A DNA stretch of 41,994 nt, taken from the NCBI GenBank assembly GCA_017938285.1, contig JAGBBW010000079.1:1-41994 (forward strand), read 5' to 3'. Each line of letters opens with the position of its first letter. The stretch's first letter is position 1. Below the pieces are notes generated by a model. The model worked only from the letters and a program-made list of their open reading frames with translations. It made no database searches and had not been told where the DNA came from. The position numbers and the translations under genes were made by a program. The stretch comes from Lachnospiraceae bacterium (GTDB lineage: Bacteria; Bacillota; Clostridia; Lachnospirales; Lachnospiraceae). Positions 27,211 to 41,994 of this stretch are shown here, piece after piece.

Positions 27211-27212
27211 TA

Positions 27213-27235
27213 GGGTTCGAATCCCTCCGTCTCCG
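27213..27235 (+). other. tRNA-Ser 3'-end fragment, island boundary copy 1
   Basis: GGGTTCGAATCCC and the following TCCGTCTCCG equal the T-arm and 3' acceptor strand of a serine tRNA with a GGAGACG-type 5' end. The 5' three quarters of a tRNA are absent, because nspC codes up to 27210. The 20-base core (27216-27235) recurs exactly at 30087-30106 and with two changes at 40985-41004. This is the usual footprint of site-specific integration at tRNA 3' ends. Confidence 0.8.
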
Positions 27236-27248
27236 TTTTAGCGACTAT

Positions 27249-27279
27249 GGACTTGCCGTTTGGCAAGTCCTTTCGTTTT
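27249..27279 (+). terminator. Intrinsic terminator after nspC / tRNA-Ser tail
   Basis: GGACTTGCC-GTTT-GGCAAGTCC is a perfect 9-bp stem followed by TTTCGTTTT. It could have served a former tRNA-Ser gene and now ends the polyamine transcript. Confidence 0.88.
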
Positions 27280-27434
27280 GTTAAGGATGGACTGGGCAGA
27301 ATGGTTTAGGCAAGTAGAGGCAAGTGTGGTCGGGTATGTGCAAGTAGGGATGAGTAGAATGGTTGGGAGTGGGGAAAGCGGGAGGTGACGACACTTCTAG
27401 GACACCTTTAAGACATGATGGAAGAAGTGGTTAC
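27280..27434 (+). other. Flank with CAAGTAG-type repeats, similar to the flank at 41061
   Basis: 27291-27330 aligns without gaps to 41061-41100: both have ACTGG, then GGTTT, then CAAGTAGAGGCAAG 20 nt after ACTGG. A second CAAGTAG lies at 27341. No gene is seen. The match suggests the two boundaries of the island share a duplicated tRNA-Ser downstream region. Confidence 0.55.
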
Positions 27435-27463: not shown

Positions 27464-27497
27464 AAGGATAATTAAATTTAAAAGTATCGAGGTGCAT

Positions 27498-28163
27498 ATG
27501 AAAAAAGCAATTTTCTTAGATTTTTATGGAACAGTAGTGTTTGAAGATGGAGAGAATATTAGAAAAATTTCGCAGATTATATTTGACACTGGAGAAGTTG
27601 ATGAAATATCAGAAATAGGAGCGTACTGGTGGGATGAGTTCTATCGGATGTTCGTGAATGCATATGGAGAAAATTTCAGAACACAAAGAGATATTGAACT
27701 TCAATCATTGACAAAGACAATTGAGCATTTTAAATCCTCGGCGGATGCTGAGAAATTAAGCAATGAGATGTTTGATTATTGGAGACAGCCACCGATTTTT
27801 GAGGAATCAAAAAAGTTCTTCGAGCAGAGTCCGGTTCCGATTTATATTGTTTCTAACATTGACACTGCAGATATTAAGGTTGCCATTGAATTTCATGGGT
27901 TGAAACCAGAGGGTGTATTTACAAGTGAAGATGCAAAATCATATAAGCCGAGAAAAGAATTATTTGAGTATGCTTTGAAATTTACTGGGTTAATGCCGGA
28001 AGAAGTAGTGCATATCGGAGATTCTATGAGCAGTGATGTAAAAGGTGCATCGGCACTTGGAATAGACACTATCTGGGTGAACCGAAGTAAGAGGAGTGTG
28101 CCGGAGAGAGTGTGTGCTGTGGAGAGCTTGTTGGAAGTTTTTAATACAGAATTTTTTAAATAG
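27498..28163 (+). CDS. HAD-superfamily hydrolase (phosphatase-like)
   Basis: This is a 221-residue cytosolic hydrolase of the haloacid dehalogenase superfamily. Motif I is LDFYGTVV with nucleophile Asp8; the second acidic position of the classical DxDxT is Tyr10, as in several DxYGT subgroups. Motif II is IVSNID, motif III the KPRKELFEYAL lysine region and motif IV HIGDSMSSDVKGA. A helical C1 cap lies between residues 15 and 90. The substrate cannot be predicted; phosphoglycolate-like small phosphates are typical. ATG 27498 is chosen over GTG 27492 because CGAGGT lies between 8 and 13 nt upstream of it. It is the first gene of the island, has its own promoter and terminator, and is visibly more AT-rich than the polyamine operon. 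Confidence 0.82.
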   Translation: MKKAIFLDFYGTVVFEDGENIRKISQIIFDTGEVDEISEIGAYWWDEFYRMFVNAYGENFRTQRDIELQSLTKTIEHFKSSADAEKLSNEMFDYWRQPPIFEESKKFFEQSPVPIYIVSNIDTADIKVAIEFHGLKPEGVFTSEDAKSYKPRKELFEYALKFTGLMPEEVVHIGDSMSSDVKGASALGIDTIWVNRSKRSVPERVCAVESLLEVFNTEFFK

Positions 28164-28176
28164 AGAAAAGATTAAG

Positions 28177-28209
28177 GGTACTGTACAGATGTTGTGCAGT
28201 ATCTTTTTT
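28177..28209 (+). terminator. Intrinsic terminator of the HAD gene
   Basis: GGTACTGTACA (28177-28187) pairs over 11 positions, two of them wobble, with TGTGCAGTATC (28193-28203), followed by TTTTTT. A further small hairpin, GGACA/TGTCC, lies at 28215-28230; the rest up to 28350 is AT-rich with no feature seen. Confidence 0.8.
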
Positions 28210-28350
28210 GCTTTTGGACAGAAAATTGTCCGCCTCCCCAAATAATTATTACACAGGAATTTAATTTTTAACTTTATGCTTCATTTTAGTTTTTTATTTT
28301 ACGGTTCAAATTACGTTATTTGTCCCCGGTAATATGCTGTCGAAAAATGA

Positions 28351-28399
28351 AAATTTTCGTGAAACGTTACAGACTTGAGGAACAAAAAGGAGTAAAATA
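28351..28399 (+). promoter_or_regulatory. Conserved 49-nt upstream block of OLD-like cassette, copy A
   Basis: AAATTTTCGTGAAACGTTAC plus AGAC, then 16 variable bases, then AGTAAAATA. The same block with the same spacing is at 39080-39128 before the other OLD-like gene; the 24-base head is identical. TTACAG (28368-28373) and TAAAAT (28393-28398), 19 nt apart, may be a promoter. CGTGAAACG could be an operator core. Confidence 0.65.
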
Positions 28400-28435
28400 T
28401 TTTTGAAAAGATTTTTATTATTTGGAGGAAATAAA

Positions 28436-29926
28436 ATGAGTATTGTAATGAAAATTCACAATGTAAAAAATATTACTGATTTCGAATTTAGTATTCCGAC
28501 AGAAAAAGGATTGTATGCTTTGACAGGGGAAAATGGTTCAGGGAAAAGCACAGTCATTTCCTGTGCAGCAACATCATTTTATGTACCATCTTTATATGCA
28601 TATTTTGGAGAACCTAAAGAAGGTTCAGCAATAGATTTTTATTTGGAAGAAAAACATAGGATAATAAGAGCAGAAAACAAAAAATGGCATAAACCAAAAG
28701 GTTATTTAGATATAACGGGATACTATGAGGGAAGTATTGTGTTTGGAACAAGATTCAAGGATGTAGATTATTCTATGTTAGACAAACTTGCCAATATTGA
28801 AAGATCACAGTTGGTAGATGCATCTGATTTTGTAAAAAAGAATCTTGGTATTATTTTGCATGATGATGAATTGTTTTACGAAAAATTGTATGCATTAAAA
28901 AAAGAAACATGTCGTGAGATGGGACTTCAACGTAATCAATACTATTATGATAACCAAGGGACGCTTATTAGTCAGTTAAATATGTCTACGGGAGAAAATT
29001 TGTTGCTTACAATTTTAAAGTCTTTAGAAATCAGATTGGGGAAAAGAAACCGAGGAGGTTTGCCGTCATTTATATTTTTAGATGAAATAGAATTGGCATT
29101 ACATTCTTCAGCTCTCAGAAGATTGGTTTTCTTTTTAAGAAAAATAGCCGATGAACATAATTTTGTGGTGCTTTTTTCGACACATTCTATTGAATTGATA
29201 AGGAGTATCCGACCGGAAAACATTTTTTATTTACAGAGGCATATAGATAACAGCATAGAAGTTATTAATCCTTGCTATCCTATATATGCGACAAGAAATT
29301 TGGAATCATCTAATTATGGACATGATTATATTATTATGGTAGAAGATGATTTGGCAAAAAAAATTGTAGAGAAAATTTTATATCAAAAGAATTTATTATC
29401 GAATAAAAGAGTGTTAGTCATTGCTGTTGGTGGTTGGACTCAAGTGTTGCGTTTTGCATATGACACAATAAGGTCAAATTTAACAATGAGTACGACAAAA
29501 ATTATGATAATTTTAGATAGAGATATCAAAGAGAGTGTGCCAGGTTTTATGAAAAATGAAAAAATAGGTTTTTCAACTCCTCCTAACTATCTTCCAATTA
29601 AGAGTTTAGAAAAATATTTATTGGAGAAATTGGTAAATAATGTTGATCATGTATTATTTCGAAAATTAAACGACTATCTATTCCAAGGGAAGTCATTAGA
29701 TGATATAATTAGAACATATAATCACAATGTGAAAAATGGAATATATACTGATGTGGAGAAGATTTCTAACGGAAAGATGTTGTATGAATTGTTGCGACAT
29801 GAACTGCAACAAATAAGAAAAATGGAGGATGATTTAGTTCAAATAATCACGGAACATTTATTTGAAAATAGCAGTCCTGAGATTGAGGAATTAACACAAT
29901 TTCTTGAGTCTACTTTGAAAATGTAG
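28436..29926 (+). CDS. OLD-like AAA ATPase with Toprim-like C-terminus, cassette A
   Basis: This 496-residue protein has an SMC/ABC-type ATPase core: Walker A GENGSGKST (31-39), a signature-like MSTGEN, Walker B SFIFLDEIELALH and the switch His in LFSTHS. The C-terminal third has a Toprim-like pattern, YIIMVEDD followed by IMIILDRD, as in OLD-family nucleases. OLD-type proteins are often phage-defence nucleases, with or without a partner such as GajB; a defence role here is inferred. ATG 28436 has TGGAGG 8 nt upstream. No helicase partner follows. It is strongly AT-rich compared with the chromosome on the left. It is enclosed by the same flanking blocks as the unrelated-looking OLD-like gene at 39163. 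Confidence 0.8.
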   Translation: MSIVMKIHNVKNITDFEFSIPTEKGLYALTGENGSGKSTVISCAATSFYVPSLYAYFGEPKEGSAIDFYLEEKHRIIRAENKKWHKPKGYLDITGYYEGSIVFGTRFKDVDYSMLDKLANIERSQLVDASDFVKKNLGIILHDDELFYEKLYALKKETCREMGLQRNQYYYDNQGTLISQLNMSTGENLLLTILKSLEIRLGKRNRGGLPSFIFLDEIELALHSSALRRLVFFLRKIADEHNFVVLFSTHSIELIRSIRPENIFYLQRHIDNSIEVINPCYPIYATRNLESSNYGHDYIIMVEDDLAKKIVEKILYQKNLLSNKRVLVIAVGGWTQVLRFAYDTIRSNLTMSTTKIMIILDRDIKESVPGFMKNEKIGFSTPPNYLPIKSLEKYLLEKLVNNVDHVLFRKLNDYLFQGKSLDDIIRTYNHNVKNGIYTDVEKISNGKMLYELLRHELQQIRKMEDDLVQIITEHLFENSSPEIEELTQFLESTLKM

Positions 29927-29954
29927 AGGGGTTGAATGTGATATTTACAAAATA

Positions 29955-30106
29955 AGTTTTCGGCACTTTTCGGACACCTCACTCTCAAAAACTGCATATC
30001 GACAGAAGGATTCGCACCCACCCTGCCAAGTCCATCCTTGTAGGAAGCAACCTTTAAAATTGGCAATTATCTTGTCTTCTAATGAATTCGAATCCCTCCG
30101 TCTCCG
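29955..30106 (+). repeat. 152-bp cassette end with tRNA-Ser tail, copy A
   Basis: This block runs from AGTTTTCGGCACTTTTCGG through ATCGACAGAAGGATTCGCAC to the tRNA-Ser core TTCGAATCCCTCCGTCTCCG at 30087-30106. It aligns over exactly 152 bp, without net gaps and at roughly 80-85 percent identity, with 40853-41004. It begins 28 nt after the OLD-like stop codon. The doubled TTTTCGG-CAC motif near its start could be recombinase arm sites. No open frame of interest is seen in it. Confidence 0.85.
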
Positions 30107-30557
30107 CTAGTAATAGAGTTTATTTTTATAATTATGTACTTGACCAATAATGCAAGAGGATGTATAATTTGATAAAAAGTTTTAGGAGGATTTTGCATGT
30201 TAAGTGTTATTGTAATGGAGAAAATTGCAAAGTAAATATTGCAGGGTGATTTTTAGTTTTGCACTAGAAGTCTGCCCATTTGTTGGCACATAGAGTGCCA
30301 GCGTTTTCGCCTTACAATTGCTTAATATTGTGGTATATATATTTCCATAGATGATATTGGCATGGCTGTATGGTCATGCTATTTTTATGATATAGGAAAG
30401 AACTCTTTCCCATATCACAAAAATGCTCCGCAAGGATGCGCACTCGCGCGAAGATGAAGTTTGTCGCAAGCGACCGCGCTCGGCGCGAGAGTTCTGCAAG
30501 CAGAACTCTTTGTTTTGTCTTTTGAAATATATAGGATAATCATATAGAGATTTAATG
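30107..30557 (+). other. Hairpin-rich stretch, possible remnant of a mobilisable element
   Basis: Apart from the 12-codon frame listed separately, this 450-bp stretch has no gene. It has several strong hairpins: TGGCAC/GTGCCA near 30274-30292; ATATAGGAAAG/CTTTCCCATAT (30390-30414); and AGAGTTCTGC-AA-GCAGAACTCT (30488-30509), a perfect 10-bp stem followed by TTGTTTTG that may be a terminator. The 30420-30490 part is GC-rich and CGCG-rich, unlike its surroundings. The look is that of intergenic DNA from conjugative or mobilisable elements, but no mobilisation gene remains, so this is only suggestive. Confidence 0.4.
30140..30235 (+). CDS. Very short frame (12 codons) behind a strong promoter and RBS
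   Basis: TTGACC (30140-30145), a 17-nt spacer and TATAAT (30163-30168) form a near-consensus promoter. AGGAGGA (30184-30190) precedes ATG 30197 by 6 nt. The frame reads MLSVIVMEKIAK and stops at 30235. The signals are better than for most genes in the window, yet the product is only 12 residues. It may be a leader peptide, a toxin-like micropeptide, or the stub of a gene lost during island rearrangement. Confidence 0.4.
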
Positions 30558-30599
30558 ACCATAGTATCTTAATGCACTTAGGGTATCTATGGTTTTTTT
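30558..30599 (+). terminator. Intrinsic terminator or attenuator before the MutS2-like gene
   Basis: ACCATAGTA pairs with TATCTATGGT (one bulge) and is followed by seven T residues, 44 nt before the MutS2-like start. Confidence 0.65.
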
Positions 30600-30642
30600 G
30601 CGTTTAAGGCGATGCTATAGTCTGAAAGGAAAGGGAAAGAAA

Positions 30643-32544
30643 ATGAATATTGAGAGACAAATTGAATTTGATAAGGTCAAAGAGATATGGGCTGGTTTAG
30701 CAATTACTGATTGGGCGAAAGAAAAAATCAGAGAAGCTTCATGGTACATTTCTGAGAGTGAGTTAAGAAAACAATTAAGGGATACAACAGATGCAAGGTT
30801 CCTGGTTGAAAAATTGGGAACACCACCGTTGCAAAATATTACTGAAATAAAAGAGGTTCTAATGATAGCAGAAAAGGGGGAGTGTTTAACGCCATATCAG
30901 TTAGAGAGAGTAGAAAGAGTATTGGTCGCAATAAAGCGGCTAAAGGATTATCTGGCAAGAGGAAAAATGTATCATAATTCCCTGGCTTACTATGACGAAA
31001 ATTTGGATTCTATTTCAGAACTGGGTCAGGAAATATGTAATAAAATCAGGAACGGAGTGGTGGATGATTATGCGTCAAAAGAATTAGAGCAGTTGCGAAA
31101 ACAAATTGTAAAATGTGAAGAGCAGATGAAACAGAAGGCAGAACAAATCATGCGTTCTAATAAGGAATGTATGGCAGATAATTACTGTACGTTCAGAAAT
31201 GGTCGAATATGCCTTCCGGTAAAAAAGGATTATAAGCTGAAGATATCCGGGAGCATTATAGATAAGTCTTCCACAGGCAGTACACTCTTTATTGAACCGT
31301 CAAGTGTTGCAAAATATTATGAAGAACTGCAGTTACTTAAAATAAGTGAAGAAAACGAAGTATATCGCATCTTGTACACCCTGTCAGCTCTTGTTTTGGC
31401 ATCTGCACCTGTACTAAATGCAGATTTGACGATGATTGAAAAACTGGATTTTATCTTCTCTAAGGGGAAATTAAGTATTGATATGGATGGTGTAGAACCG
31501 GCAATTAATACAGAACGAAGAATGAAATTAATGGAGGCACGTCATCCCTTGATGAATAAAACGACAGCAGTACCATTACAGTTTGAGGTGGGCGAAACGA
31601 TACGAGGTATTGTTATAACTGGTCCTAACACGGGAGGAAAAACCGTAGCAATTAAAACGGTTATGCTGAATTGTATCATGGCGCAATGTGGACTACATGT
31701 TACGTGTAAACAGGCTGATATATGTATGAATAGTTCTTATCTGTGTGATATTGGCGATGGGCAGAATTTGTCAGAAAATTTGTCTACCTTTTCTGCACAT
31801 ATAACTAATGTGCTGGAAGTTTTAAGTGAAGCAAATAAGGATAGCTTTGTTATTATGGACGAATTAGGCTCCGGTACAGATCCTACGGAAGGTATGGGGA
31901 TTGCAATTGCAATATTAGAAGAACTCAGAAAAAGCGGTGCTATTTTTCTGGTAACAACACATTATCCGGAAGTAAAGGAATACGCAGCCAAGGCAGAGGA
32001 TATCGTCAATGCAAGAATGGCCTTTGATAAAGAAACATTACGTCCTACGTATCAGATGGTGATTGGAGAAGCTGGTGAAAGTTGTGCATTTTATATTGCA
32101 GACAGATTAGGAATGTCGGGTGAAATGTTGAAAGTGGCGATTCGTGCCGCATATGGCGAAGACGCGGTAAAGTCCTATTCATTTCAAAATCCGGAAAGTA
32201 ATATCCTTAAGAAAAATACGACTAAAATTGCCAAAGCGAAAACTGGAAAAAATAATACGGAACTTACTACCAGGTATAAAATAGGAGATAGTGTGATGGT
32301 TTATCCGGAGAAAAAGATAGGGATTGTGTGTGTACCGATTAATGAAAAAGGCGTGTTAAGGGTGCAGCTGCCGAATAAAAAAATTTGGATTAACCATAAG
32401 CGGGTGAAACTGCATGTGGCAGCAACAGAACTTTATCCGGAGGATTATGATTTTTCGATTATATTTGAAACGGTTGAAAATCGAAAAAAACGGCACGATA
32501 TGCAAAGAAAATATACAGATGCTGTGATAGAGTTGGAAGAATAG
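30643..32544 (+). CDS. MutS2-like ATPase lacking the Smr domain
   Basis: This 633-residue MutS-family protein resembles MutS2 along its length. It has the N-terminal core and clamp (CLPVKKDY...STGSTLFIEPSSV matches the MutS2 VPVK...SSSGATLFIEP block), Walker A GPNTGGKT at residue 327, Walker B VIMDELGSGTDPTEG and the switch region VTTHYPEVK. The C-terminal part has a KOW-like segment (IGDSVMVYPEKKIGIV). The Smr endonuclease domain that completes ordinary MutS2 (about 780-790 residues) is absent, and the coiled coil after the ATPase is short. Ordinary MutS2 acts in recombination control or in splitting collided ribosomes. This truncated paralogue probably keeps ATP-driven clamp movement without nuclease action; that is inference. 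ATG 30643 follows GAAAGGAAAGGGAAAG. Confidence 0.82.
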   Translation: MNIERQIEFDKVKEIWAGLAITDWAKEKIREASWYISESELRKQLRDTTDARFLVEKLGTPPLQNITEIKEVLMIAEKGECLTPYQLERVERVLVAIKRLKDYLARGKMYHNSLAYYDENLDSISELGQEICNKIRNGVVDDYASKELEQLRKQIVKCEEQMKQKAEQIMRSNKECMADNYCTFRNGRICLPVKKDYKLKISGSIIDKSSTGSTLFIEPSSVAKYYEELQLLKISEENEVYRILYTLSALVLASAPVLNADLTMIEKLDFIFSKGKLSIDMDGVEPAINTERRMKLMEARHPLMNKTTAVPLQFEVGETIRGIVITGPNTGGKTVAIKTVMLNCIMAQCGLHVTCKQADICMNSSYLCDIGDGQNLSENLSTFSAHITNVLEVLSEANKDSFVIMDELGSGTDPTEGMGIAIAILEELRKSGAIFLVTTHYPEVKEYAAKAEDIVNARMAFDKETLRPTYQMVIGEAGESCAFYIADRLGMSGEMLKVAIRAAYGEDAVKSYSFQNPESNILKKNTTKIAKAKTGKNNTELTTRYKIGDSVMVYPEKKIGIVCVPINEKGVLRVQLPNKKIWINHKRVKLHVAATELYPEDYDFSIIFETVENRKKRHDMQRKYTDAVIELEE

Positions 32545-32564
32545 ACTATGGAGGTGTTGATAAA

Positions 32565-33119
32565 ATGAAGCGTATTATAAAATCAATGGAGAATAAATAT
32601 CTTCTTCCGTCGCTGGAATTGGTGCAGAAGGTTTTTGCGGAATATGATAGTCCGGAAGAAGGAAAAGTTGTAAGACAACTGGTAGAAGAAATCCGGGCAA
32701 AAAAATATTACATGCCCGAATTGGAAATTATTATGGTTGACGAAAAAGATGAGATTGTTGGATATGCGATGTTTTCACGTTTTCATATTGAGGGAAGGTA
32801 TGAAAATGAATTGCTGATACTTACACCTGTTGCTGTAAAAACGGAACTGCAGCGGCGACACATTTCAAAGGATATATTGGAATATGGATTTGATGTGGCA
32901 AAGAGACTGGGATTTAAAGCAATTCTTGTTGAGGGTAATCCACGTAATTATAACAATCGGGGTTTTCAGTCAAGCTACAAATTTGGCATAGAGGCAGGTC
33001 CGAATATAAAGTTGCCACATCCAGATTGTCTCATGATTAAGGAACTGGAAAAGGGAGCTTTAGATAGAATAAGCGGGTTGGTTGATTATTCTTTTTATGA
33101 AGCGCTTCACGAAGGATAA
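32565..33119 (+). CDS. GNAT-family N-acetyltransferase
   Basis: This is a 184-residue acetyl-CoA-dependent acetyltransferase of the GNAT superfamily (YhbS-like). The core strand-turn is visible as IVGYAMFSRF. The acetyl-CoA binding segment is LTPVAVKTELQRRHISKDIL, where QRRHIS corresponds to the Q/RxxGxG/A loop in a degenerate form. YNNRGFQSSYKFG follows. The acceptor substrate is unknown. ATG 32565 has GGAGGTG 9 nt upstream, and the gene follows the MutS2-like gene by 20 nt, so the two share a transcript. A terminator follows. Confidence 0.82.
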   Translation: MKRIIKSMENKYLLPSLELVQKVFAEYDSPEEGKVVRQLVEEIRAKKYYMPELEIIMVDEKDEIVGYAMFSRFHIEGRYENELLILTPVAVKTELQRRHISKDILEYGFDVAKRLGFKAILVEGNPRNYNNRGFQSSYKFGIEAGPNIKLPHPDCLMIKELEKGALDRISGLVDYSFYEALHEG

Positions 33120-33184
33120 GAAGGAGGGAGCACAATAAGAAGTGAGGATATGTAAATTTTAATAGTACAGCGCATTACAGTTGG

Positions 33185-33220
33185 AAAGAACCATACAGCC
33201 ATGAGACTGCATGGTTCTTT
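33185..33220. terminator. Bidirectional terminator between the GNAT and XRE genes
   Basis: AAAGAACCAT (33185-33194) with ATGGTTCTTT (33211-33220), plus an inner CAG/CTG, gives a stem with A and T runs on opposite sides. Confidence 0.8.
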
Positions 33221-33226
33221 TCGGGT

Positions 33227-34354
33227 CTAATCTGTTTCTTTTTCCGCCTCTGCTTTTGCCCATTCCACGGCTTCCAGGTAGTTTTGCGTATCCCGGACGC
33301 TGTCAAACCATGCCCAGCGTGGGTTGGTAAGGAATCCGTACAGGAAACCAGCATGACAGAAGTTGGTATAACTGGAACCGTAGATTTCGTGTACATTTCC
33401 TTCCGAATCTAACATGGTGGAGTAGTCCCTGTGGACTTTTAAATCCGAAAAGATGGCGTTTCCAAGTGGTAACCATTCTTCTTCCTGGGCGAAAATACGG
33501 CGGTAAGTGGCAAAGGCTGCATCGAACTCCTTCCAGCCTTCTTCCGGTTTATTGTCACCAAACAGGCAGGCGGCAAGGACAAACTGTTTATAGGCATAAA
33601 ACAGTGCCCAACCGTCCGGTGGTGTAGTGCCATCACCAAAAGAGGCAAGAATTTTCAGTACACCCCGGTGATACTCTGCCTTGCGGGCCGGACCAAAGGC
33701 ATCAGGAAAACGGCGGTCCAGCTGCTGGGCAAAATTTTCAAACGCCTCGATACTTTGGTGGAGATGGTAGTTTTTGTGGCCAATCTGGAAATCATAGCGG
33801 GTTACCAGACAACCTCTGCGGGTGTAAGCAGAGGTCCAGGAACACAGGTCAAGCCACTGCTCTAAATTTTCCTCCGGGCAGACGCAGATGATATTCCCAA
33901 CGGCACCATCACGATAGCAGGTTCCTTTCAGACGCTCATACAGTTTTATCATGGCCGGCAGATAGATGGAAGTCTGGTCTTTATTCACCAGCAGATAATT
34001 TTTCATGATATCCTGCAGAATAAAGGCGAAACGGTCATTATCGGGATATCTGTGACAGTATTCCTCTGCAAATTGCAGCTGTTCCAGACTTCCAAATGGC
34101 AGGGAATTCAGCTTGCCATAAAAACGCTTCTGGTCTGCTTCCTTGGAAACAGCGTCGTTGGAAAGCAGCTGGTCAATGGTAACACCAAAATAGTTGGCGA
34201 TGGTCGGAAGCAGTTCTATGTCTGGATAGCATATGCCAAGCTCCCAGCGGGACACGGACTGGTAGGAAACCCCGAGAACATCCGCCAGGGCTTCCTGTGT
34301 AAGTTGTTTTTCTTTACGGAGTGCTTTTAATTGTTCACCAATATATAGTTTCAT
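33227..34354 (-). CDS. XRE-family transcriptional regulator with large C-terminal domain
   Basis: This is a 375-residue protein. Residues 3-60 are a Cro/CI-type helix-turn-helix (IGEQLKALRKEKQLTQEALA, then GVSYQSVSRWELG). The remaining 300 residues are soluble, Trp/Tyr-rich and helical, perhaps a TPR-like sensor, and not assignable to a known ligand domain. Two in-frame ATGs lie close together; the inner one (34354) has AAGGA at 7 nt, whereas it would touch the outer ATG at 34360, so the inner is preferred. The region upstream has an 11-bp inverted pair, GTAACTATTCA/TGAATAGTTAC, that could be its own operator. It is monocistronic inside the island. Confidence 0.82.
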   Translation of the reverse strand: MKLYIGEQLKALRKEKQLTQEALADVLGVSYQSVSRWELGICYPDIELLPTIANYFGVTIDQLLSNDAVSKEADQKRFYGKLNSLPFGSLEQLQFAEEYCHRYPDNDRFAFILQDIMKNYLLVNKDQTSIYLPAMIKLYERLKGTCYRDGAVGNIICVCPEENLEQWLDLCSWTSAYTRRGCLVTRYDFQIGHKNYHLHQSIEAFENFAQQLDRRFPDAFGPARKAEYHRGVLKILASFGDGTTPPDGWALFYAYKQFVLAACLFGDNKPEEGWKEFDAAFATYRRIFAQEEEWLPLGNAIFSDLKVHRDYSTMLDSEGNVHEIYGSSYTNFCHAGFLYGFLTNPRWAWFDSVRDTQNYLEAVEWAKAEAEKETD

Positions 34355-34370
34355 AGTCATTCCTTTTCTT

Positions 34371-34461
34371 GTAACTATTCAACCCACCCCAAATCCACAT
34401 TCGTAAAACCTGCCAGCAAGCTGTCAGTCCGTATATATAGCAGATAAGGCTGAATAGTTAC
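34371..34461. promoter_or_regulatory. Widely spaced perfect inverted repeat upstream of the XRE gene
   Basis: GTAACTATTCA (34371-34381) and TGAATAGTTAC (34451-34461) are exact inverse copies with 69 nt between them, starting 16 nt from the XRE start codon. They are candidate sites for autoregulation through looping. The rest of the gap up to 34698 shows a small TCTCG/CGAGA hairpin near 34530 and a possible promoter (TTGTAG at about 34625, TGATAA 17 nt on) for the next gene. No gene is seen. Confidence 0.45.
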
Positions 34462-34698
34462 CTTTTTTAAAATTGAAGTAGCGCTTCTTCTTATGATTAT
34501 TGTAGCAAGTTTTTTTCGCATGTACAATCTCTCGTTCTGCGAGAATGGTTCACGTAGGGAGTGAGGGGGGAACTTTGAATATTTCCTGTCATTGTAAGGA
34601 GTGTACTCCGATGAGTGAAGGATTTTTTGTAGTTTTTTTCGCGTGTGTGTGATAATATGGATGCATAGTTTTTGATTTGCAGTAATGAGGTGATATTT

Positions 34699-35259
34699 AT
34701 GGCAACTTTTTATCTGGTGCGACATGGCGAAGCTGATTACAGTGAAATGTTAGAAAAGGGTTTTTATGGTTTTGGACGTTCGTTTGCACCATTATCAGAA
34801 AAAGGAATCGGTCAGGCAGAAGCAGCAGCGACGGATGAACGTTTAAAATCAGCGGAATTAATCGTTTCTTCTCCTTATACGAGAGCGTTACAGACAGCTG
34901 CGATTATTTCAAGGGAAACAGGCTTGAAACTATGTGTCGAAGTGGATTTGCATGAGTGGGAGCCGGATAAGACAAACCAGTATACCACTTCGGAAGAAGC
35001 ATTTAGTTTGACCAGGGAGTTTAATTTACATAAAGGTGTATATCCTGAAGGTCAGGAAATGAAGTGGGAAACATTAGAGGAAGTAAGAAAAAGAATGCGG
35101 AAAGTTGCAGACAAATACGCAGGCTATAACAAGGTCATCTTTGTTGGTCATGGTATGGCTTTCAGGACACTTACCTACATAGAACAAATGAAACCGGCTG
35201 AAATAGTGGAATGTATCTATCATACAGGACAAGAAGATTGTGAATATTCATTTTATTAA
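34699..35259 (+). CDS. Histidine phosphatase family protein (phosphoglycerate mutase-like)
   Basis: This is a 186-residue protein. The RHG motif (LVRHGEADY, phospho-accepting His9) starts the fold, followed by SPYTRALQTA with the conserved Arg, and FVGHGMAFR with the second catalytic His. It belongs to the branch-1 histidine phosphatases, most likely a small-molecule phosphatase; the substrate is unknown. ATG 34699 has GAGGTGAT 5-8 nt upstream. The next gene starts 52 nt later and may be co-transcribed. Confidence 0.87.
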   Translation: MATFYLVRHGEADYSEMLEKGFYGFGRSFAPLSEKGIGQAEAAATDERLKSAELIVSSPYTRALQTAAIISRETGLKLCVEVDLHEWEPDKTNQYTTSEEAFSLTREFNLHKGVYPEGQEMKWETLEEVRKRMRKVADKYAGYNKVIFVGHGMAFRTLTYIEQMKPAEIVECIYHTGQEDCEYSFY

Positions 35260-35311
35260 ATCCCAATGGTGCAGAGGTTGGAAAATTTTGAATTTTGCGA
35301 GGTTGAAGCAG

Positions 35312-35881
35312 ATGAAGACAGTAAAACGAAAATCGGCTGGAACACATTTTTCAATGTGTGTGCAGCCTGCTTTTATTATTGGTACAAACAATGAAGACGG
35401 AACATATAATTTTGCTCCCATTACATGGGTCAGCGTTACAAGTGAAAAAGAAAACGAGTATCTGCTGACCATCAGCATGTTTGGCACGAAGAGGACCAAG
35501 CAGAATGTAATCAGAACCGGAATATTAAGTGTAAATCTGGTCAGCACGGATATGCTTGAACTAATGGACTATTTTGGTACACATCACGCAAAAGACGGAA
35601 AAAAGGATGAACTTTTTTATGCAGTTGGCAGAGGAGAAGTTGTAGATGTGCCTGTGTTGGATGCGAGCCGCTGGGTGTATGAATGTGAGGTTGTTCATTC
35701 GGTTGAGACGGGGGAATCAACTACGTTCTTTTGCAGGATAAAGAATGTCCAGATAGATGAGCAACTGGACTGTGCGGATACCTTTGATGTGAATTTGACG
35801 AAACTGGACCCTGTGATTTATTCGGGGATCTACCATAGTATTGGAGAGGTACTTGGGAAAATAGGGGATTTTGGGAAGTAA
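35312..35881 (+). CDS. Flavin reductase-like FMN-binding protein
   Basis: This is a 189-residue protein of the flavin reductase/DIM6-NTAB split-barrel family. It has the FMN-binding N-terminal pattern (GTNNEDGTYNFAPITWVSVT, then LLTISMFGTKRTKQNV) and the ILSVNLVS strand. It probably binds FMN and reduces it or a small substrate; the partner is unknown. In-frame codons from 35240 overlap the previous gene's end, so ATG 35312, preceded by GCGAGG, is preferred. It sits between the histidine phosphatase and the 430-residue unknown gene, all in one direction. Confidence 0.82.
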   Translation: MKTVKRKSAGTHFSMCVQPAFIIGTNNEDGTYNFAPITWVSVTSEKENEYLLTISMFGTKRTKQNVIRTGILSVNLVSTDMLELMDYFGTHHAKDGKKDELFYAVGRGEVVDVPVLDASRWVYECEVVHSVETGESTTFFCRIKNVQIDEQLDCADTFDVNLTKLDPVIYSGIYHSIGEVLGKIGDFGK

Positions 35882-35941
35882 GTAATTTCCAGATGTGAAG
35901 CAGACAATTTTACATAAGCCAATAAAGAAGGAGTTCACCTC

Positions 35942-37234
35942 ATGAGAGAACAAAAAGTATTGGTTATTGCCATCGACCCACATATTACTAACCCGGTTAC
36001 GGGTAATCAGGAAAAGGCTTCTGAGTATTTAGGTTTTTCGTTGGATTTATCGGTCAGCACGCTGAAGCAGTTCATAGAGTATGGGTCTTATGATGAGGTG
36101 CAAATAAAGGTAGTTGATACCATACATATAAATGAATTTCCAAAGTATACAGAGTTTGCATCAATGACAGAAGAACAGTTTATGAAGCTCTTTCCGGTAA
36201 ATCAAAATGGAAAAGGAGAATGGTACGACTGGTGGACGAGAAATAAAGAAATGCAGGTGCTGCCAGCAGAATTAGACACGGCCTGGCATTTTGACTATTC
36301 TTATCTGATAGACAAATGCGATTTGATAAACCTCCGGAAGGAAAGAAAATTTGATATGGTGTGGGTGTTTGGTATTGACCCACTTAGTATGTATGAATCA
36401 GCAATGATAGGTAAGTCACCGTTTTGGATTAATGGTGGTGTTGGTTACGCTGATTGTGAGAACTTTGCTATACTTGGCATGACTTTTTCACGTCCGGATG
36501 GGGCATTGGAGAATTTTTGTCACATGAGTGAAGCAATGCTGAATTATACCTATGGTGTATCGCAGCAGGAATATCGGGAGAGAATGGAATTTAATGATTT
36601 TTCTGAATTGAATACGTGGCAAAAATTTTATTTATGCCAGCACAATTCGCCGGCTGACAATACCGTCTATGGGGTTGGTCAGGTTCATTTCTCGCCAAAT
36701 TCGACAAGGGATTATGAGTGGCAATTGCAAACGCCGGTACAGAGCTATCATCAAACTTTTTTAGAGGATTATCCAAATATTACGAATAAAAATGTAACAA
36801 CATTTACTGCGGGCGAGTATTTAAAAAAATGCGAAGCTGATGGTTTTTGGGCATTGATACAGCATCATCTTTGGTGGCTTCGGCATATGCCCCATTACGA
36901 AGGGCGTGACGAGAATGGATACTTACATAATTGGTGGGAGTATATTCTGGATTTAAAGTATGTCACCGATTTAGCAGTTAGTGATTTATATGATTCAGGG
37001 AAAATAAGGATTCCTCTCGGTGAATCCATAGAGGATATTTCCTTTGTCATAAAATATAACACGAAGGAAACAGTTGAGACCACGGTATTGAGCAGTGGGG
37101 CAATATTAAAATGTGAAGAAAACAATATTTTATTAGTGCCAGATGGAACAATATTCGGTATGTCTGCCGGAACAGGAAAAATCGTAATTATGTATGATGG
37201 ACATGCATTGGAGTATGTGATTGAAGTTTATTAG
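35942..37234 (+). CDS. Uncharacterised 430-residue protein with conserved W/H-rich motifs
   Basis: I cannot assign a function. There is no signal peptide or membrane segment. The protein has an N-terminal alpha/beta part (KVLVIAIDPHITNP, then FDMVWVFGIDPLSMYESAM). A middle part has the motif VGQVHFSPNSTRDYEW. It continues with HHLWWLRHMPHYEG and LHNWWEYILD, rich in His, Trp and acids as in a metal or sugar site. The C-terminal 80 residues look like a small beta domain (GTIFGMSAGTGKIVIMYDG). From memory, proteins with the same G.VHF.PN and WW..H.P patterns occur as uncharacterised, often secreted, proteins in other bacteria and fungi; that relation is tentative. ATG 35942 follows AAGGAG. A strong terminator follows. 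Confidence 0.6.
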   Translation: MREQKVLVIAIDPHITNPVTGNQEKASEYLGFSLDLSVSTLKQFIEYGSYDEVQIKVVDTIHINEFPKYTEFASMTEEQFMKLFPVNQNGKGEWYDWWTRNKEMQVLPAELDTAWHFDYSYLIDKCDLINLRKERKFDMVWVFGIDPLSMYESAMIGKSPFWINGGVGYADCENFAILGMTFSRPDGALENFCHMSEAMLNYTYGVSQQEYRERMEFNDFSELNTWQKFYLCQHNSPADNTVYGVGQVHFSPNSTRDYEWQLQTPVQSYHQTFLEDYPNITNKNVTTFTAGEYLKKCEADGFWALIQHHLWWLRHMPHYEGRDENGYLHNWWEYILDLKYVTDLAVSDLYDSGKIRIPLGESIEDISFVIKYNTKETVETTVLSSGAILKCEENNILLVPDGTIFGMSAGTGKIVIMYDGHALEYVIEVY

Positions 37235-37339
37235 ATTGTACTGTTTAGTATGTTCAGGGTGTCAGGGAGAATCTACTTGGGAGGGAATAAAGGAAAGAAT
37301 TAAGCACTGTATGAAATAAATAAATGTAAATAAATTACA

Positions 37340-37379
37340 AGAAAAGGTACTTCCGGCAATGAAGAGAAGTACCTTTTCT
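37340..37379. terminator. Bidirectional terminator between convergent genes
   Basis: AGAAAAGGTACTTC (37340-37353) and GAAGTACCTTTTCT (37366-37379) form a perfect 14-bp stem. It serves the 430-residue gene on the plus strand and gpmI on the minus strand. Confidence 0.88.
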
Positions 37380-37393
37380 GCATATTAGCTTTT

Positions 37394-38962
37394 TTATATC
37401 ATAGACTTTTCCCAACAATCAGGTGTTTTAAGACCAAAGATGGAAGCAATCGTTGGTGCAACATTTGCAAGTCCAAAGTTGCCTTCCTTGATGGTGTATT
37501 TCGTATTTTTATCATAAATGATAAATGGAACCTGATTCAGGGAATGGGCGGTACGAACCTGAAGTTCGCCTTTTTTGTTCTTCTCAAGCATTTCGTCTGC
37601 GTTGCCGTGGTCAGCAGTAACAAGCAGGGTGATGTTGTACTCGTCCACAACCTTTAGAAGTCTTGCGAGAGCAAGGTCAACAGCTTCTACGGAGGTGATA
37701 ACGGCATCCATGTTGCCGGTGTGACCTACCATGTCGCCATTTGGGAAGTTGCAGCGGATAAAGTCATACTTTTCTGACTTGATGGCTTCGATTAAATCAT
37801 CTGTTATTTCTGCAGATTTCATCCAAGGACGCTCGTCAAAGGATACTTTATCAGAAGGAATTTCTTTGAATGTTTCCAGTTCTTCACTAAACTTCTCGCT
37901 CTTGTTACCGTTCCAGAAATATGTAACGTGACCATACTTCTGGGTTTCAGATACGGCATATTGATTGAGCTTGTTGCTAACAAGGAGCTCAGAAAGGGTA
38001 TTGCGGATATCTGGTGGGTTAACAAGGTATCTCTTAGGGAGATTCAGGTCACCATCATACTGGAGCATACCTGCGTATACGACATCCGGACGGGTGCCAC
38101 GGTCGAATGCGGTAAAGGTTTCATTATCAAATGCCATGGAAAGCTCTAAAGCACGGTCACCACGGAAGTTGAAAAGAATGACACTGTCTTTATCTACAAT
38201 TCTGCCGACAGGTTCTCCGTCTTTTGCAATAACAAAGGCGGGAAGATCCTGGTCGATTACATTTAACTCGTTACGATATGCTTCAATAGCAGCAAGGGCA
38301 TTGTCGAACTGACGACCAAGACCGAGAACATGAGTATCCCAGCCGCGCTTTACCATATCCCAGTTAGCCTCGTAACGATCCATCGTGATATTCATACGAC
38401 CGCCGCCACTTGCTATCTTAGCGTCAAAACCAGCATCATTTAATTCGGTGAGAACATCTTCCAGTTGCTCGATATATGTATGTGCGCTTGTTGCAGGAAC
38501 ATCACGACCGTCAAGCAGTGCATGAATGCGAACTTTGCTAACGCCTGCATTCTTTGCTTCTTTCAGCATGGAAATAAGGTGGGAGATGTTAGAATGAACA
38601 TTGCCATCGGAAAGCAGACCGATAAAATGCAGTGTGGAGTTATAAGCTTTGCAGTTATCAATAACTTCGTTCCAGGCAGTGGAAGTGTACATTTTACCAC
38701 TTTCAATTGATTCATTTACAAGCTTTGCGCCCTGGGAATAAATCTGCCCGCAGCCAAGTGCGTTATGACCTACCTCACTGTTACCCATATCATCGTCAGA
38801 AGGAAGACCGACAGCAACACCATGCGCATTGAGTCTTGTATTAGGGCATTCTGCGAGTAACTTATCAAGTGCCGGAGTATTCGCCTTTGCTACAGCGTCA
38901 CCGATACCGGACTTACTGAAACCAATACCATCCATAACAACTAATAAAACTTTTTTGTTCAT
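37394..38962 (-). CDS. gpmI: 2,3-bisphosphoglycerate-independent phosphoglycerate mutase
   Basis: This is a 522-residue alkaline-phosphatase-superfamily enzyme that interconverts 3- and 2-phosphoglycerate in glycolysis and gluconeogenesis using two Mn ions. The N-terminal metal motif VVMDGIG, the phosphorylated Ser62 in MGNSEVGHNALG, and the C-terminal metal ligands in TADHGNADEM and RTAHSLNQVPF are all present, so it looks intact and active. It has GGAGG 9 nt upstream of the start. It is unusual to find this housekeeping enzyme in an island bounded by tRNA-Ser tails, between an unknown gene and an OLD-like cassette. It may be a second copy or a chromosomal gene trapped between insertions. 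Confidence 0.93.
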   Translation of the reverse strand: MNKKVLLVVMDGIGFSKSGIGDAVAKANTPALDKLLAECPNTRLNAHGVAVGLPSDDDMGNSEVGHNALGCGQIYSQGAKLVNESIESGKMYTSTAWNEVIDNCKAYNSTLHFIGLLSDGNVHSNISHLISMLKEAKNAGVSKVRIHALLDGRDVPATSAHTYIEQLEDVLTELNDAGFDAKIASGGGRMNITMDRYEANWDMVKRGWDTHVLGLGRQFDNALAAIEAYRNELNVIDQDLPAFVIAKDGEPVGRIVDKDSVILFNFRGDRALELSMAFDNETFTAFDRGTRPDVVYAGMLQYDGDLNLPKRYLVNPPDIRNTLSELLVSNKLNQYAVSETQKYGHVTYFWNGNKSEKFSEELETFKEIPSDKVSFDERPWMKSAEITDDLIEAIKSEKYDFIRCNFPNGDMVGHTGNMDAVITSVEAVDLALARLLKVVDEYNITLLVTADHGNADEMLEKNKKGELQVRTAHSLNQVPFIIYDKNTKYTIKEGNFGLANVAPTIASIFGLKTPDCWEKSMI

Positions 38963-39079
38963 CTATACAACCTCCATGATTTTTTCTACGCTAGGATTAT
39001 ACAATGAAAATGAGTGGAAGGCAACAGGGGAGTTTTAATTAGTTGATAATGGACGAGGTACCGGGGAGTTATGAATCGT

Positions 39080-39128
39080 AAATTTTCGTGAAACGTTACA
39101 GACAAGAGGATTGTATAGTAGTAAAATA
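39080..39128 (+). promoter_or_regulatory. Conserved 49-nt upstream block of OLD-like cassette, copy B
   Basis: This matches 28351-28399: the first 24 bases are identical (AAATTTTCGTGAAACGTTAC and AGAC), AGTAAAATA lies at the same distance, and about half of the 16 bases between agree. It lies 34 nt upstream of the second OLD-like start codon. Confidence 0.65.
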
Positions 39129-39162
39129 CGTATAAAGATAAACTTTACGAGGAGGTAGGAAT

Positions 39163-40854
39163 ATGAAACTAATAGAACTCCAGATTAAAAATTATGGTTG
39201 TATTGATGGCAAGGGAATTACTATAAAAATAGATAATATCGTTGTACTGATTGGACCAAATAATGTTGGTAAAACAACGGTATTAAAGGCATATGAATTA
39301 TTTAGAAGTTCTGGAGCAGCACAAACTTTGGGTGATTTTTATCAAAATGATGAAAGAAATGCAATAGAGATTGCTGGTGTGTTTGGAGAAATCAGTGAAG
39401 ATGATAAAAATCAAATTGGAACAAAATGGTTGTATTCTAATGAAGAAGGAGAACTTGTAATTAAATATAAATGGGTGTGGACAAAGAGTGGTGAAAAAGG
39501 ACAAAAGTATTCATGGGATAATGAGCAACAAGATTGGTGTCTAGGCGGTATGGGAGGTTGGGATACAAAGATTGCAAGTTGCATTCCTTTGCCATTAAAG
39601 GTAAATCCATTTGATGATTCGGAGCAATTAGAGAAGCAAATTGTTGACTTGTTGATGTCTGCTGTAAAAGAAAATGTGAAAAGTAATCAGTCTGAAGTGG
39701 ATAAGATGCTTGAGCAAATAAATGAGTTGGCAAAGGATGTTAAAAAGAAAATTAGTGATGAGTTAGAGATAACTACAAGCAAATTACAGGAAAATTTGAA
39801 TGAAATTTTTCCAGGGAATAAAATAGACATAGAACCTCAAGCAGGGAAAATGGATGTTGATAAAATATTAGCTACAGGAACGCATCTGCAAATTGCTAAT
39901 GAGGATGGAAAATTTTATCCGTTGGCTAATCAGGGCAGTGGATTGCAAAGGGCTTTTTTATGGTCTGCTATTGAGGCTTTGGCTGATACTGGTAAAATGA
40001 AAAACGGAAAAAATCTTATAAAAAATGAGGAACCTAAAATTCTTTTGATAGAAGAACCGGAGTCTTTTTTACATCCGCCAGCGATAAGGTCTGCTAGAGA
40101 AGCCTTGTACAAAATTGCTGAATTAGAAAACTGGCAAGTTATGCTTACGACACATTCGCCGATTTTTATTGATGTTTCTAAACCGCATACGACAATTATT
40201 AGAGTTGAAAAAAATGAAGGAAAAGCAACGAAGGTATTCTCGACGGAAAAGGCGGATTTTTCAGAAGATGAAAGAGAAAGATTGCAGATGATAAGGAATT
40301 GTCATCCTACTGTAAATGAATTCTTTTTTGCAAGCAAAGTTATTTTGGTAGAAGGAGATACAGAGCAAGCCGCTTTAATGCAAGTGAAGAAAGAAAATGT
40401 TTCAATTTTGAATTGTAAGGGAAAAGCGAATATTCCAATGTTCGAAAGAATACTTAACCATTTTGGAATGAGCTATATTGCGTTACATGATTTGGATTCT
40501 CCTAAAGCTAAACGTAATGGAGATTGGATAAAAAATTCAATGTGGACAATAAATGAAAAAATCTTTGCGGAAGCAAAGAAAGGGGAAAATAGCAAAGTAA
40601 TTGTTAATATTCCAGATTTTGAGGGTCAATTTTTTGGATACTTACAGAATGGAGATAAACCATATAATGCAATTTGTGAATTGAAGAAAAGTGAAAACGA
40701 GAAGGTTGTTAAGGAATTAGAACGAATTGCTAATGGTGAGATTACGGATACATATGAACGAGAAATATGTTCAATTAGTGATTACGAATCTAAAGGGCGG
40801 ACATATTGTAAGGAGAAGTCTATTGAAATGGTAGATGCATGGGTATTTGAATAG
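39163..40854 (+). CDS. OLD-family ATP-dependent endonuclease, cassette B
   Basis: This 563-residue protein has an N-terminal ABC/SMC-type ATPase: Walker A GPNNVGKTT at 31-39, a coiled-coil insertion at about 165-225, signature-like NQGSGLQRAFLW, Walker B KILLIEEPESFLHP and the switch His in TTHSP. A C-terminal Toprim domain follows, with VILVEGDTEQAAL and later IALHDLDSPKA, giving the acidic metal-binding pattern of OLD nucleases. OLD proteins are phage-defence or DNA-processing nucleases; defence here is inferred. The start ATG 39163 has GAGGAGG upstream. It shares little sequence with the other OLD-like protein in the window beyond ATPase motifs, yet has the same flanking blocks. Its stop codon lies inside the first bases of the 152-bp end block. 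Confidence 0.88.
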   Translation: MKLIELQIKNYGCIDGKGITIKIDNIVVLIGPNNVGKTTVLKAYELFRSSGAAQTLGDFYQNDERNAIEIAGVFGEISEDDKNQIGTKWLYSNEEGELVIKYKWVWTKSGEKGQKYSWDNEQQDWCLGGMGGWDTKIASCIPLPLKVNPFDDSEQLEKQIVDLLMSAVKENVKSNQSEVDKMLEQINELAKDVKKKISDELEITTSKLQENLNEIFPGNKIDIEPQAGKMDVDKILATGTHLQIANEDGKFYPLANQGSGLQRAFLWSAIEALADTGKMKNGKNLIKNEEPKILLIEEPESFLHPPAIRSAREALYKIAELENWQVMLTTHSPIFIDVSKPHTTIIRVEKNEGKATKVFSTEKADFSEDERERLQMIRNCHPTVNEFFFASKVILVEGDTEQAALMQVKKENVSILNCKGKANIPMFERILNHFGMSYIALHDLDSPKAKRNGDWIKNSMWTINEKIFAEAKKGENSKVIVNIPDFEGQFFGYLQNGDKPYNAICELKKSENEKVVKELERIANGEITDTYEREICSISDYESKGRTYCKEKSIEMVDAWVFE

Positions 40855-41004
40855 TTTTCGGCACCTTTCGGGCACCTCGCCCGTAAAAACTGCATATCGA
40901 CAGAAGGATTCGCACCCGACCTGCCAAGTCCATCCTAGCCAAAAGCAACCTTTAAAACTGGCGATTATCTTGGCTGTCCGCGAGTTCAAATCCCTCCTTC
41001 TCCG
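40853..41004 (+). repeat. 152-bp cassette end with tRNA-Ser-like tail, copy B
   Basis: This has the same length and order as copy A at 29955-30106, from AGTTTTCGGCACCTTTCGGG to the core TTCAAATCCCTCCTTCTCCG (two changes from the tRNA-Ser core). The blocks AAAAACTGCATATCGACAGA, AGGATTCGCACCC and GCAACCTTTAAAA are shared. Here CGGGC-ACCTC-GCCCG can form a hairpin that copy A lacks. It begins at the stop codon of the OLD-family gene. Confidence 0.85.
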
Positions 41005-41016
41005 TTTTGTCAAAAG

Positions 41017-41047
41017 AAGAACTGGCTATAACAGGCTGGTTCTTTTT
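41017..41047 (+). terminator. Intrinsic terminator behind the last tRNA-Ser tail
   Basis: AAGAACTGGC (41017-41026) pairs with GCTGGTTCTT (41035-41044), and a T run follows. Confidence 0.75.
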
Positions 41048-41160
41048 GATTTAGAATAAACTGGATAAAAAGGTTTGGACAAGTAGAGGCAAGCGGGGAT
41101 AAGAGAAAACTATTAGAAATAATAATGCAGAAGCGAGCACCGACATTCGTAGTCCCCCAC

Positions 41161-41189
41161 TTGCCCCTTCCCCCTCAATATGATAAAAT
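41161..41189 (+). promoter_or_regulatory. dapB promoter
   Basis: TTGCCC (41161-41166), a 17-nt spacer and TAAAAT (41184-41189). The 13 bases AATATGATAAAAT are identical to the HAD gene promoter end. The stretch 41061-41160 holds the CAAGTAGAGGCAAG flank repeat (41081-41094) and no gene. Confidence 0.6.
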
Positions 41190-41222
41190 ATCCTATCAAC
41201 ACAAAGAAAGCAGGAAATAAGC

Positions 41223-41993
41223 ATGGTTAAAATCGCAGTTGTTGGCTGTACCGGGAAATTGGGCAGTTCCATTGTAAAAAGCATTCTGAACAGAAATGAC
41301 GTGGAACTGGGTTCTGCTATTGCCAGAAAAGGAAATCAGTTTGCAGGAAAAGCAGTATCGGAACTTGTGGGCGGAAAGTGTGAATTGAAAATTGTGGATG
41401 ATATAGAAAAAGCGACGGATAGTGATATTTTTATTGACTGTACCAATGCAGATACTTTTATGGCTGTCAGCTATGAGAAATATAGTACGATGAAGAGGCC
41501 GTTGGTTATTGCAACCACAGCGTTTACTTCTGAAGATATTGCGAAGATAAAAGAACTGTCGCTGCAGATTCCGGTATTTATGACAGGAAATTTCAGCATT
41601 GCCCTTCATGATTTTATTGAGACGTTAAAGTTTGCGGTAAAAAGAGTGAGTGTGGACACGGATGTGCAGATTGTGGAGTATCATCATAATCAAAAGAAGG
41701 ACGCTCCGAGTGGGACTGCTTTGATGATTAGAGAGGCACTGGTAAATGCAAATCCAAGGCTGCAGGAGGAAAATGTGAATATTTGCAGTATTCGTGGAGG
41801 AAACATTTTTGGTGAGCATGAGGTGATTTTTGCAAACTGTAAAGATGAGGTAGTGACGTTCAGACATCAGGTGTCCTCTAGGGAAACTTTTGCAGATGGT
41901 GCAATAGAAGTTTCCTGCTGGCTGGTGAAACAGGAAAATGGCATGTACAATATGTATGATTTTTGTGCTAATGAAGAGGGAAGTATATGCTGA
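41223..41993 (+). CDS. dapB: 4-hydroxy-tetrahydrodipicolinate reductase
   Basis: This 256-residue enzyme reduces 4-hydroxy-tetrahydrodipicolinate with NAD(P)H in the diaminopimelate/lysine pathway. The N-terminal nucleotide-binding motif VAVVG-type (IAVVGCTGKLG), the catalytic EYHHNQKKDAPSGTA block with the His pair and Lys, and the RGGNIFGEHEV motif are all present. The length is normal, and the TGA stop lies one base before the window end, so the gene is complete. ATG 41223 has GCAGGAAA upstream. It lies just outside the island boundary and is probably resident chromosome. Confidence 0.93.
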   Translation: MVKIAVVGCTGKLGSSIVKSILNRNDVELGSAIARKGNQFAGKAVSELVGGKCELKIVDDIEKATDSDIFIDCTNADTFMAVSYEKYSTMKRPLVIATTAFTSEDIAKIKELSLQIPVFMTGNFSIALHDFIETLKFAVKRVSVDTDVQIVEYHHNQKKDAPSGTALMIREALVNANPRLQEENVNICSIRGGNIFGEHEVIFANCKDEVVTFRHQVSSRETFADGAIEVSCWLVKQENGMYNMYDFCANEEGSIC

Positions 41994-41994
41994 C

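Follow-up and report, generated by a model that had tools for sequence, protein, structure and literature searches.

A genus-specific promoter-like box and tRNA-Ser attachment-like ends at the edges of two ATPase-TOPRIM genes in a Lachnospiraceae contig

The described systems closest to the locus reported here are small mobile elements without a recombinase of their own. Cis-mobilizable elements (CIMEs) have an attachment (att)-like end on each side, carry neither integrase nor transfer genes, and take part in accretion at the 3′ ends of tRNA genes (PMC5704250). In Dehalococcoides, 15 ssrA genomic islands are described without an integration module (PMC3146451). Our locus lies on a Lachnospiraceae contig of 41,994 nt (JAGBBW010000079.1, assembly GCA_017938285.1), analysed at its full length and called the window below. 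It is contig C62 of genome G000 (3.2 Mb, 154 contigs), and G000 to G003 are the four genomes of our genus sample. Two genes for nuclease-type proteins in the window, at 28436 and 39163, are each preceded and followed by similar sequence blocks, which a first-pass annotation had read as the frames of a cassette with interchangeable cargo. We favour another explanation, with a probability of about three in four, namely that two independent parts meet at these genes: a genus-specific regulated promoter upstream and the right attachment end of tRNA-Ser elements downstream. The likeness at the edges would then come from one genus-specific promoter in front of both genes and, behind them, from the eroded attachment site of elements that insert into tRNA genes, and the cargo would differ because the elements differ, not through exchange between fixed frames.

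Both repeat pairs were recovered where the first-pass annotation had placed them. The downstream pair (29955-30106 and 40853-41004) spans 152 nt with 84 % identity (127/152; repeat search and BLASTN), and the upstream pair (28351-28399 and 39080-39128) spans 49 nt, also with 84 % identity (repeat search). A comparison of the two upstream regions, 200 nt each, gave no exact match longer than the 24 identical bases of the blocks, a length beyond chance, as 300 dinucleotide shuffles reached 11 at most. A 20-bp box within these blocks stands 82 nt from the ATG of the 28436 gene and 80 nt from that of the 39163 gene, a near-identical spacing. The flanks are indeed better conserved than the dissimilar genes between them. 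BLASTN of one unit against the other returned the two blocks only, with all remaining matches at E ≥ 0.57, and the significant alignment between the two proteins is limited to 98 amino acids (aa) with 28 % identity (E 4e-06). Each downstream block closes in a tRNA-Ser 3′ tail as had been noted, to which we add that the two tails differ, one being CGA-type and the other GGA-type. ARAGORN detected no intact tRNA in the window.

The upstream block has the look of a promoter and not of an element end, and its anatomy resembles that of a promoter with a regulator-binding site in place of the −35 region. The general layout of the sites is TTTTCNTGAAACGTYACAGA, 19 nt and TANN[AC]T. A 20-mer search of G000 to G003 that allowed three mismatches gave 34 sites; three-mismatch sites were regarded as noise because a reversed control gave the same number (34). 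We kept ten sites (eight with none, one with one and one with two mismatches) and dropped 24 of the 34 before counting (two with two mismatches and 22 with three), of which 20 were readable. Four of the kept boxes are in G000, two in G001, none in G002 and four in G003. The hexamer TANN[AC]T starts exactly 19 nt past the box in nine of the ten kept sites and 20 nt past it in the tenth, so across several operons the spacing between the box and a −10-like hexamer is practically constant. Start codons, assignable at nine of the ten boxes, are co-directional and come about 78-203 nt after the start of the box. When the box core was searched together with TANNNT at up to one mismatch, the four genomes yielded nine sites (eight of the kept ones and one within a coding frame) and the control two.

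The box appears to be confined to the genus. Across 397 family genomes, in which the genus is represented by G000 and G003 only, the 20-mer at up to two mismatches has 17 sites, including four in each of these two. The nine sites outside the genus compare with ten in the reversed control (our own count), and none of the nine is followed by the hexamer. Scanning the collection of named genomes, from which the window's own genome may be absent, for an exact 21-mer returned one stretch (L037); judged by its context this is the site on G001 contig C40, and it was counted once. The A residues directly before the box are conserved, and all spacer columns carry at most 1.12 bits. One base of the box is species-specific, T in 6/6 sites of G000 and G001 and C in 4/4 sites of G003, which fits a binding site changing with its regulator and equally local homogenisation. 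The box core (TGA-AACG-TYA) is nearly palindromic, and by our count its centre is near −41, which would be the class II activator position. As the box precedes the −10-like hexamer by 19 bp and no −35 is recognisable, we infer promoter activity and the binding of a regulator, which most likely would switch the genes on jointly. In layout the sites resemble the ComR/ScuR (RRNPP) promoters, which also have a dyad-like box with a near-fixed spacer to the −10 and are common to several operons; unlike those promoters, ours do not have T-rich spacers (PMC6703854). A limited literature search found no description of a promoter box common to unrelated defence systems.

We consider the box the part worth following, as an apparently genus-specific, operator-like site common to unrelated, unlinked genes (Table 1). 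Genes behind three of the ten boxes are immune by profile match. The first of the two regulator-like proteins behind the G000 C55 box aligns with a 315-aa regulator-like gene product encoded upstream of the G003 C10 box (28 % over 92 aa), and relatives of the C55 gene occur in 4/4 genus genomes. The relative in G002 (contig C70, L164) contains one TAA stop, and G002 is the sole genome without a kept box. When the best relative of the C55 gene was inspected in each genome, a box was found only before the G000 copy, the best sites of the others having 6-7 mismatches. With the stopped copy in the box-less genome, and n = 4 genomes, there is a hint that the C55 pair is a lead for the box regulator. 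Other candidates considered were a CRP/FNR-, LacI- or CcpA-type operator and an ECF sigma factor. A wider model, which we regard as rather unlikely, would place acquired immune and surface genes, unlinked and partly located on mobile elements, under one operator, with OLD, ATPase-TOPRIM and Hachiman-like systems armed jointly by a single regulator, perhaps an XRE-TPR protein that senses peptides, like the C55 pair. If this were true, the DUF6731 operon, the 145-aa G001 gene and the PP2C operon would be candidate immune genes, and box-led searches could flag undescribed defence genes. One box controlling unrelated defence systems at unlinked sites would also provide a handle on when a commensal arms its immunity.

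The downstream block looks like the right attachment end of tRNA-Ser-targeting elements, and for this part the tRNA scar is the ordinary explanation. The tail at 30087-30106 matches without a mismatch the 3′ end of the tRNA-Ser(CGA) gene on G000 contig C122; the one at 40985-41004 does so for tRNA-Ser(GGA) on contig C38 (both genes ARAGORN calls). Since the tails belong to two tRNA-Ser genes, the two block copies are not simply one duplicated unit. A further copy on G003 contig C4 is identical to either window copy at 97 of 152 positions (maxima of 2000 shuffles 56 and 61) and is preceded, at a distance of about 314 nt, by a gene for a tyrosine integrase (PF00589, 1.8e-16), with no box there. 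It opens with the same TTTTCGGCACCTTTCGGACACC repeat and closes in a tRNA-Ser tail followed by CTAGTAA, like the copy ending at 30106; a degraded copy is present on G000 contig C42. The arm sites and core of lambda-type integrases usually look like this, with two repeats and then a tRNA tail next to an integrase gene, and defence-type genes often stand at the ends of tRNA-inserted elements. We infer past integration of elements whose tyrosine integrase enters tRNA-Ser genes, which would have left this end of arm-type repeats and tRNA-Ser 3′ tail.

The distribution of the block is narrow. BLAST searches of 145 relatives (75 with a match; best five candidates per genome) gave alignments confined to the tRNA tail region, except in G000 and G003, where they reached further. 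Within the genus, matches reaching past the bare tail were those on G000 C62 and C42 and G003 C4, with none in G001 and G002. A profile built from three copies found two in G000, one in G003 and no others among 348 family genomes (best eight candidates per genome). The G003 integrase was recovered at E ≤ 1e-60 only from G003 itself (397 genomes, best four candidates per genome).

Similar arrangements were seen elsewhere in the genus. In G001, two contigs, C2 (L099) and C25 (L095), contain the intact tRNA-Ser(CGA) and a tail that adjoins another integrase gene, with matching ATCCAAAG arm-like repeats (by eye), and these are perhaps both ends of another element using the same tRNA. Contig C42 of G000 (L038), on its reverse strand, overlaps the right end of the window by 91 bp (98.9 %). 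Directly after dapB it carries a Septu pair (PtuA 8.7e-119, PtuB 2.3e-70), followed by a beta-lactamase-fold hydrolase gene (PF00144), the degraded attachment block with its tail and then the 3′ end of dapB a second time, over 275 bp (93 %).

The first of the two nuclease-type genes belongs to a 2.9-kb stretch, 27213-30106, resembling a cis-mobilizable element. It may be a decayed or trans-dependent, CIME-like unit consisting of an attL-like end, a HAD gene, the ATPase-TOPRIM gene and an attR-like end. Tails and arm-like sites are present on both of its sides. The HAD and ATPase-TOPRIM genes are its only open reading frames of at least 100 aa, and no integration or transfer gene is among them. 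On the left, an arm scan found one arm-like site, TTCTAGGACACC, at 27395 with two mismatches, and the 165 nt of 27243-27407 are 85 % identical to positions 72246-72410 of G000 C42. Relationship to an integrase-bearing element was found for the right end only, through the G003 C4 block. As two tRNA tails enclose the unit and it has no integrase, its recombinase would come from elsewhere. The earlier suggestion of a recombinase supplied elsewhere may therefore stand for this one unit. If the unit is mobile, the empty site would be the decarboxylase gene (PF00278, called nspC-like) joined directly to CTAGTAATAG; past the matching decarboxylase gene of G002 the sequence differs from that of the window. 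The OLD gene at 39163 would adjoin the surviving right end of a second element, which used another tRNA-Ser gene, and this copy has a right end only.

The first-pass annotation knew of no described element with this layout, but both systems named at the outset are of this kind. As in CIMEs and accretion, two att-like tRNA tails enclose a small piece of DNA devoid of integrase and transfer genes, a related block stands beside an integrase in a relative, and several tails follow in a row; the locus differs in that the left core comes after a protein gene and not a tRNA gene, and in that the closest same-genome relative of the G003 integrase is only 28 % identical (PMC5704250). Like the Dehalococcoides islands, the units are arranged in tandem with 20-bp repeats of the 3′ end of an RNA gene, some lack a recombinase and the cargo varies, but those islands use a serine recombinase and ssrA, whereas here the ends are of the tyrosine-integrase type and the target is tRNA-Ser (PMC3146451).

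Several observations weigh against the explanation of a promoter upstream and an attachment end downstream. The hexamer at 19 nt also occurs in 2 of the 20 readable dropped sites, both with three mismatches (one near a kept box, on the opposite strand). The OLD copy shows no left end in the stretch from the iPGM gene to the promoter of the OLD gene, and the tail is absent before the C42 copy of the left-end-like block. Integration at a tRNA gene is not directly visible, since the contig has no intact tRNA-Ser; tail 1 comes after a decarboxylase gene and not a tRNA. The integrase beside the G003 block has only a distant best relative in G000 (28 %).

Table 1. Features of the window and genes behind the ten kept boxes
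Feature	Position	Strand	Details
tRNA-Ser(CGA) 3′ tail 1, putative left core	27213..27235 (tail 27216-27235)	+	directly past decarboxylase stop (27210)
Left-end-like block	27236..27407	+	terminator-like hairpin, GCAAGTAG repeats (by eye)
HAD-family hydrolase gene	27492..28163	+	PF00702 7.7e-14
Promoter-like block, first copy	28351..28399	+	AAA + box TTTTCGTGAAACGTTACAGA (28354-28373), 19-nt spacer, TAAAAT
ATPase-TOPRIM gene, retron type I-B effector-like	28436..29926	+	496 aa; PADLOC ATPase-Toprim_I-B 3.1e-33, residues 1-455
Putative right attachment end, first copy	29955..30106	+	TTTTCGGCACTTTTCGGACACC arm-like repeats, then tRNA-Ser(CGA) tail 30087-30106
Promoter-like block, second copy	39080..39128	+	box 39083-39102, 19 nt, TAAAAT
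OLD-family ATPase-TOPRIM gene	39163..40854	+	563 aa; PADLOC Old 9.9e-88; PF20469 OLD-like_TOPRIM 9.9e-15
Putative right attachment end, second copy	40853..41004	+	tRNA-Ser(GGA) tail 40985-41004; first two bases overlap OLD stop codon
Weak left-end-like stretch after 40985 tail	41045..41098	+	74 % to 27276-27329
G000 C62, two boxes (window): ATPase-TOPRIM and OLD genes			PADLOC profiles
G000 C16 box, operon: polysaccharide-epimerase-type protein			PF02719 4.4e-95
G000 C16 box, operon: TPR/membrane-like protein			our reading of the sequence
G000 C16 box, operon: PP2C-type protein			9.4e-07
G000 C16 box, operon: 251-aa protein			weak PDC-S07 match, 1.4e-05
G000 C55 box: two proteins without Pfam matches			XRE-TPR-like regulators by our reading
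G001 C40 box: 145-aa gene			marginal SduA match only, 0.0077
G001 C2 box: contig-end stretch			12-codon frame
G003 C8 box: DUF6731 gene			1.4e-66
G003 C20 box: 311-aa gene without matches and HamB-like helicase (Hachiman-like operon)			HamB 8.6e-65
G003 C10 box: rhodanese-like and methyltransferase-like genes			our reading
G003 C33 box: 733-aa protein with Ig-like matches			Big_13 4.8e-08

A true exchangeable cassette, in which the box and the 152-bp block are the ends of a 1.8-1.9 kb unit and a single nuclease gene is swapped, would account for both blocks flanking both genes at a near-identical upstream spacing and for the homogeneity of the box within species. This reading fails because the two frames occur apart: eight of the ten kept boxes have no downstream block, and two of the four blocks (one of the four, on C42, being degraded) have no box. 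Six of the eight boxes are block-free in the stretches read around them. The surroundings of the G001 C2 box are unreadable as its contig ends about 270 nt on, and the block BLAST of G001 gave nothing beyond the bare tRNA tail. In the 500 nt leading up to the G003 integrase gene, and in the 300 nt leading up to the C42 hydrolase gene, the best box site has eight mismatches. Paired blocks around other genes, on which the first-pass annotation had let its swap idea depend, were not found in the genomes searched. The fixed geometry of the box and the two different tRNA tails also speak against a cassette, which we consider very improbable. A single duplication that later diverged, with box, gene and block copied together and homologous cargo, which the first-pass annotation had named as its alternative, is the least likely explanation of all. 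Both genes are ABC-ATPase-TOPRIM genes by profile and their flanks are alike, but they have no DNA similarity, the protein alignment is as short as given above, their best matches are different defence families, and the tails come from two tRNA-Ser genes.

The block could also serve the nuclease genes as a terminator or structured RNA and not be an attachment end. It starts at their stop codons (29 nt after one and overlapping the other), and the 40853 copy folds better than its shuffles (z −2.63, 3/200), which again counts against the attachment end; the other copy, however, folds like its shuffles (z −1.08, 27/200), and in G003 the block comes after an integrase gene and has a tRNA-Ser tail at its end. 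Rfam families were tried as candidates and none matched within the blocks at E ≤ 1; the search of 27000-41994 gave only five microRNA-type matches at this threshold, all below gathering scores and outside the blocks. We regard an RNA function as very unlikely, though the least improbable of the rivals. That the box is an insertion or recombination signal spread within each genome, its −10 resemblance being secondary, would agree with its patchy presence (4, 2, 0 and 4 copies in G000 to G003) and species-specific variants. The exact offset of the hexamer in nine of the ten sites and the co-directional start codons downstream do not favour such a signal. Moreover, the window region searched holds no further good copy, a third member of the repeat family reaching only 61 %, and we find this explanation highly improbable.

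Regarding the two nuclease-type genes, PADLOC profiles of OLD and of retron type I-B ATPase-TOPRIM defence proteins match across most of each protein. The 39163 product shows the ABC ATPase followed by TOPRIM that is typical of the OLD family (PF13175, PF20469 and PADLOC Old) and matches the OLD-family structure PDB 6p74 (3.1e-21). For the 28436 product Pfam gives the ATPase only, with no Pfam TOPRIM match, and its class comes from PADLOC ATPase-Toprim_I-B. Unlike in type I-B retrons, no reverse transcriptase or helicase was present among the neighbours scanned (HAD, MutS_V, iPGM and dapB), and a retron with reverse transcriptase and non-coding RNA was not found at 28436, where the scanned neighbours are the HAD and MutS_V genes. 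Relatives of the 28436 protein at ≥80 % coverage occur in 44 plasmid records, the best-ranked with 37.8 % identity. The OLD protein was found at E ≤ 1e-40 only as the window copy (299 family genomes, best four candidates per genome). Phage carriage was considered and rejected: no viral contig had an exact match to the arm pattern or the box, and one viral stretch matched the ATPase-TOPRIM peptide pattern, but none encodes a relative.

Past the second tail, positions 30589-32544 encode a 651-aa protein with a MutS_V domain (PF00488, 4e-34). Between tail and gene lies a repeat of about 133 bp (30382-30514) with more than ten further full or partial copies in G000, up to 98 % identical over the full length (best 40 of 101 candidates). 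A second interspersed repeat, at 34370-34461, likewise has more than ten full or partial copies elsewhere in G000 (best 40 of 101 candidates).

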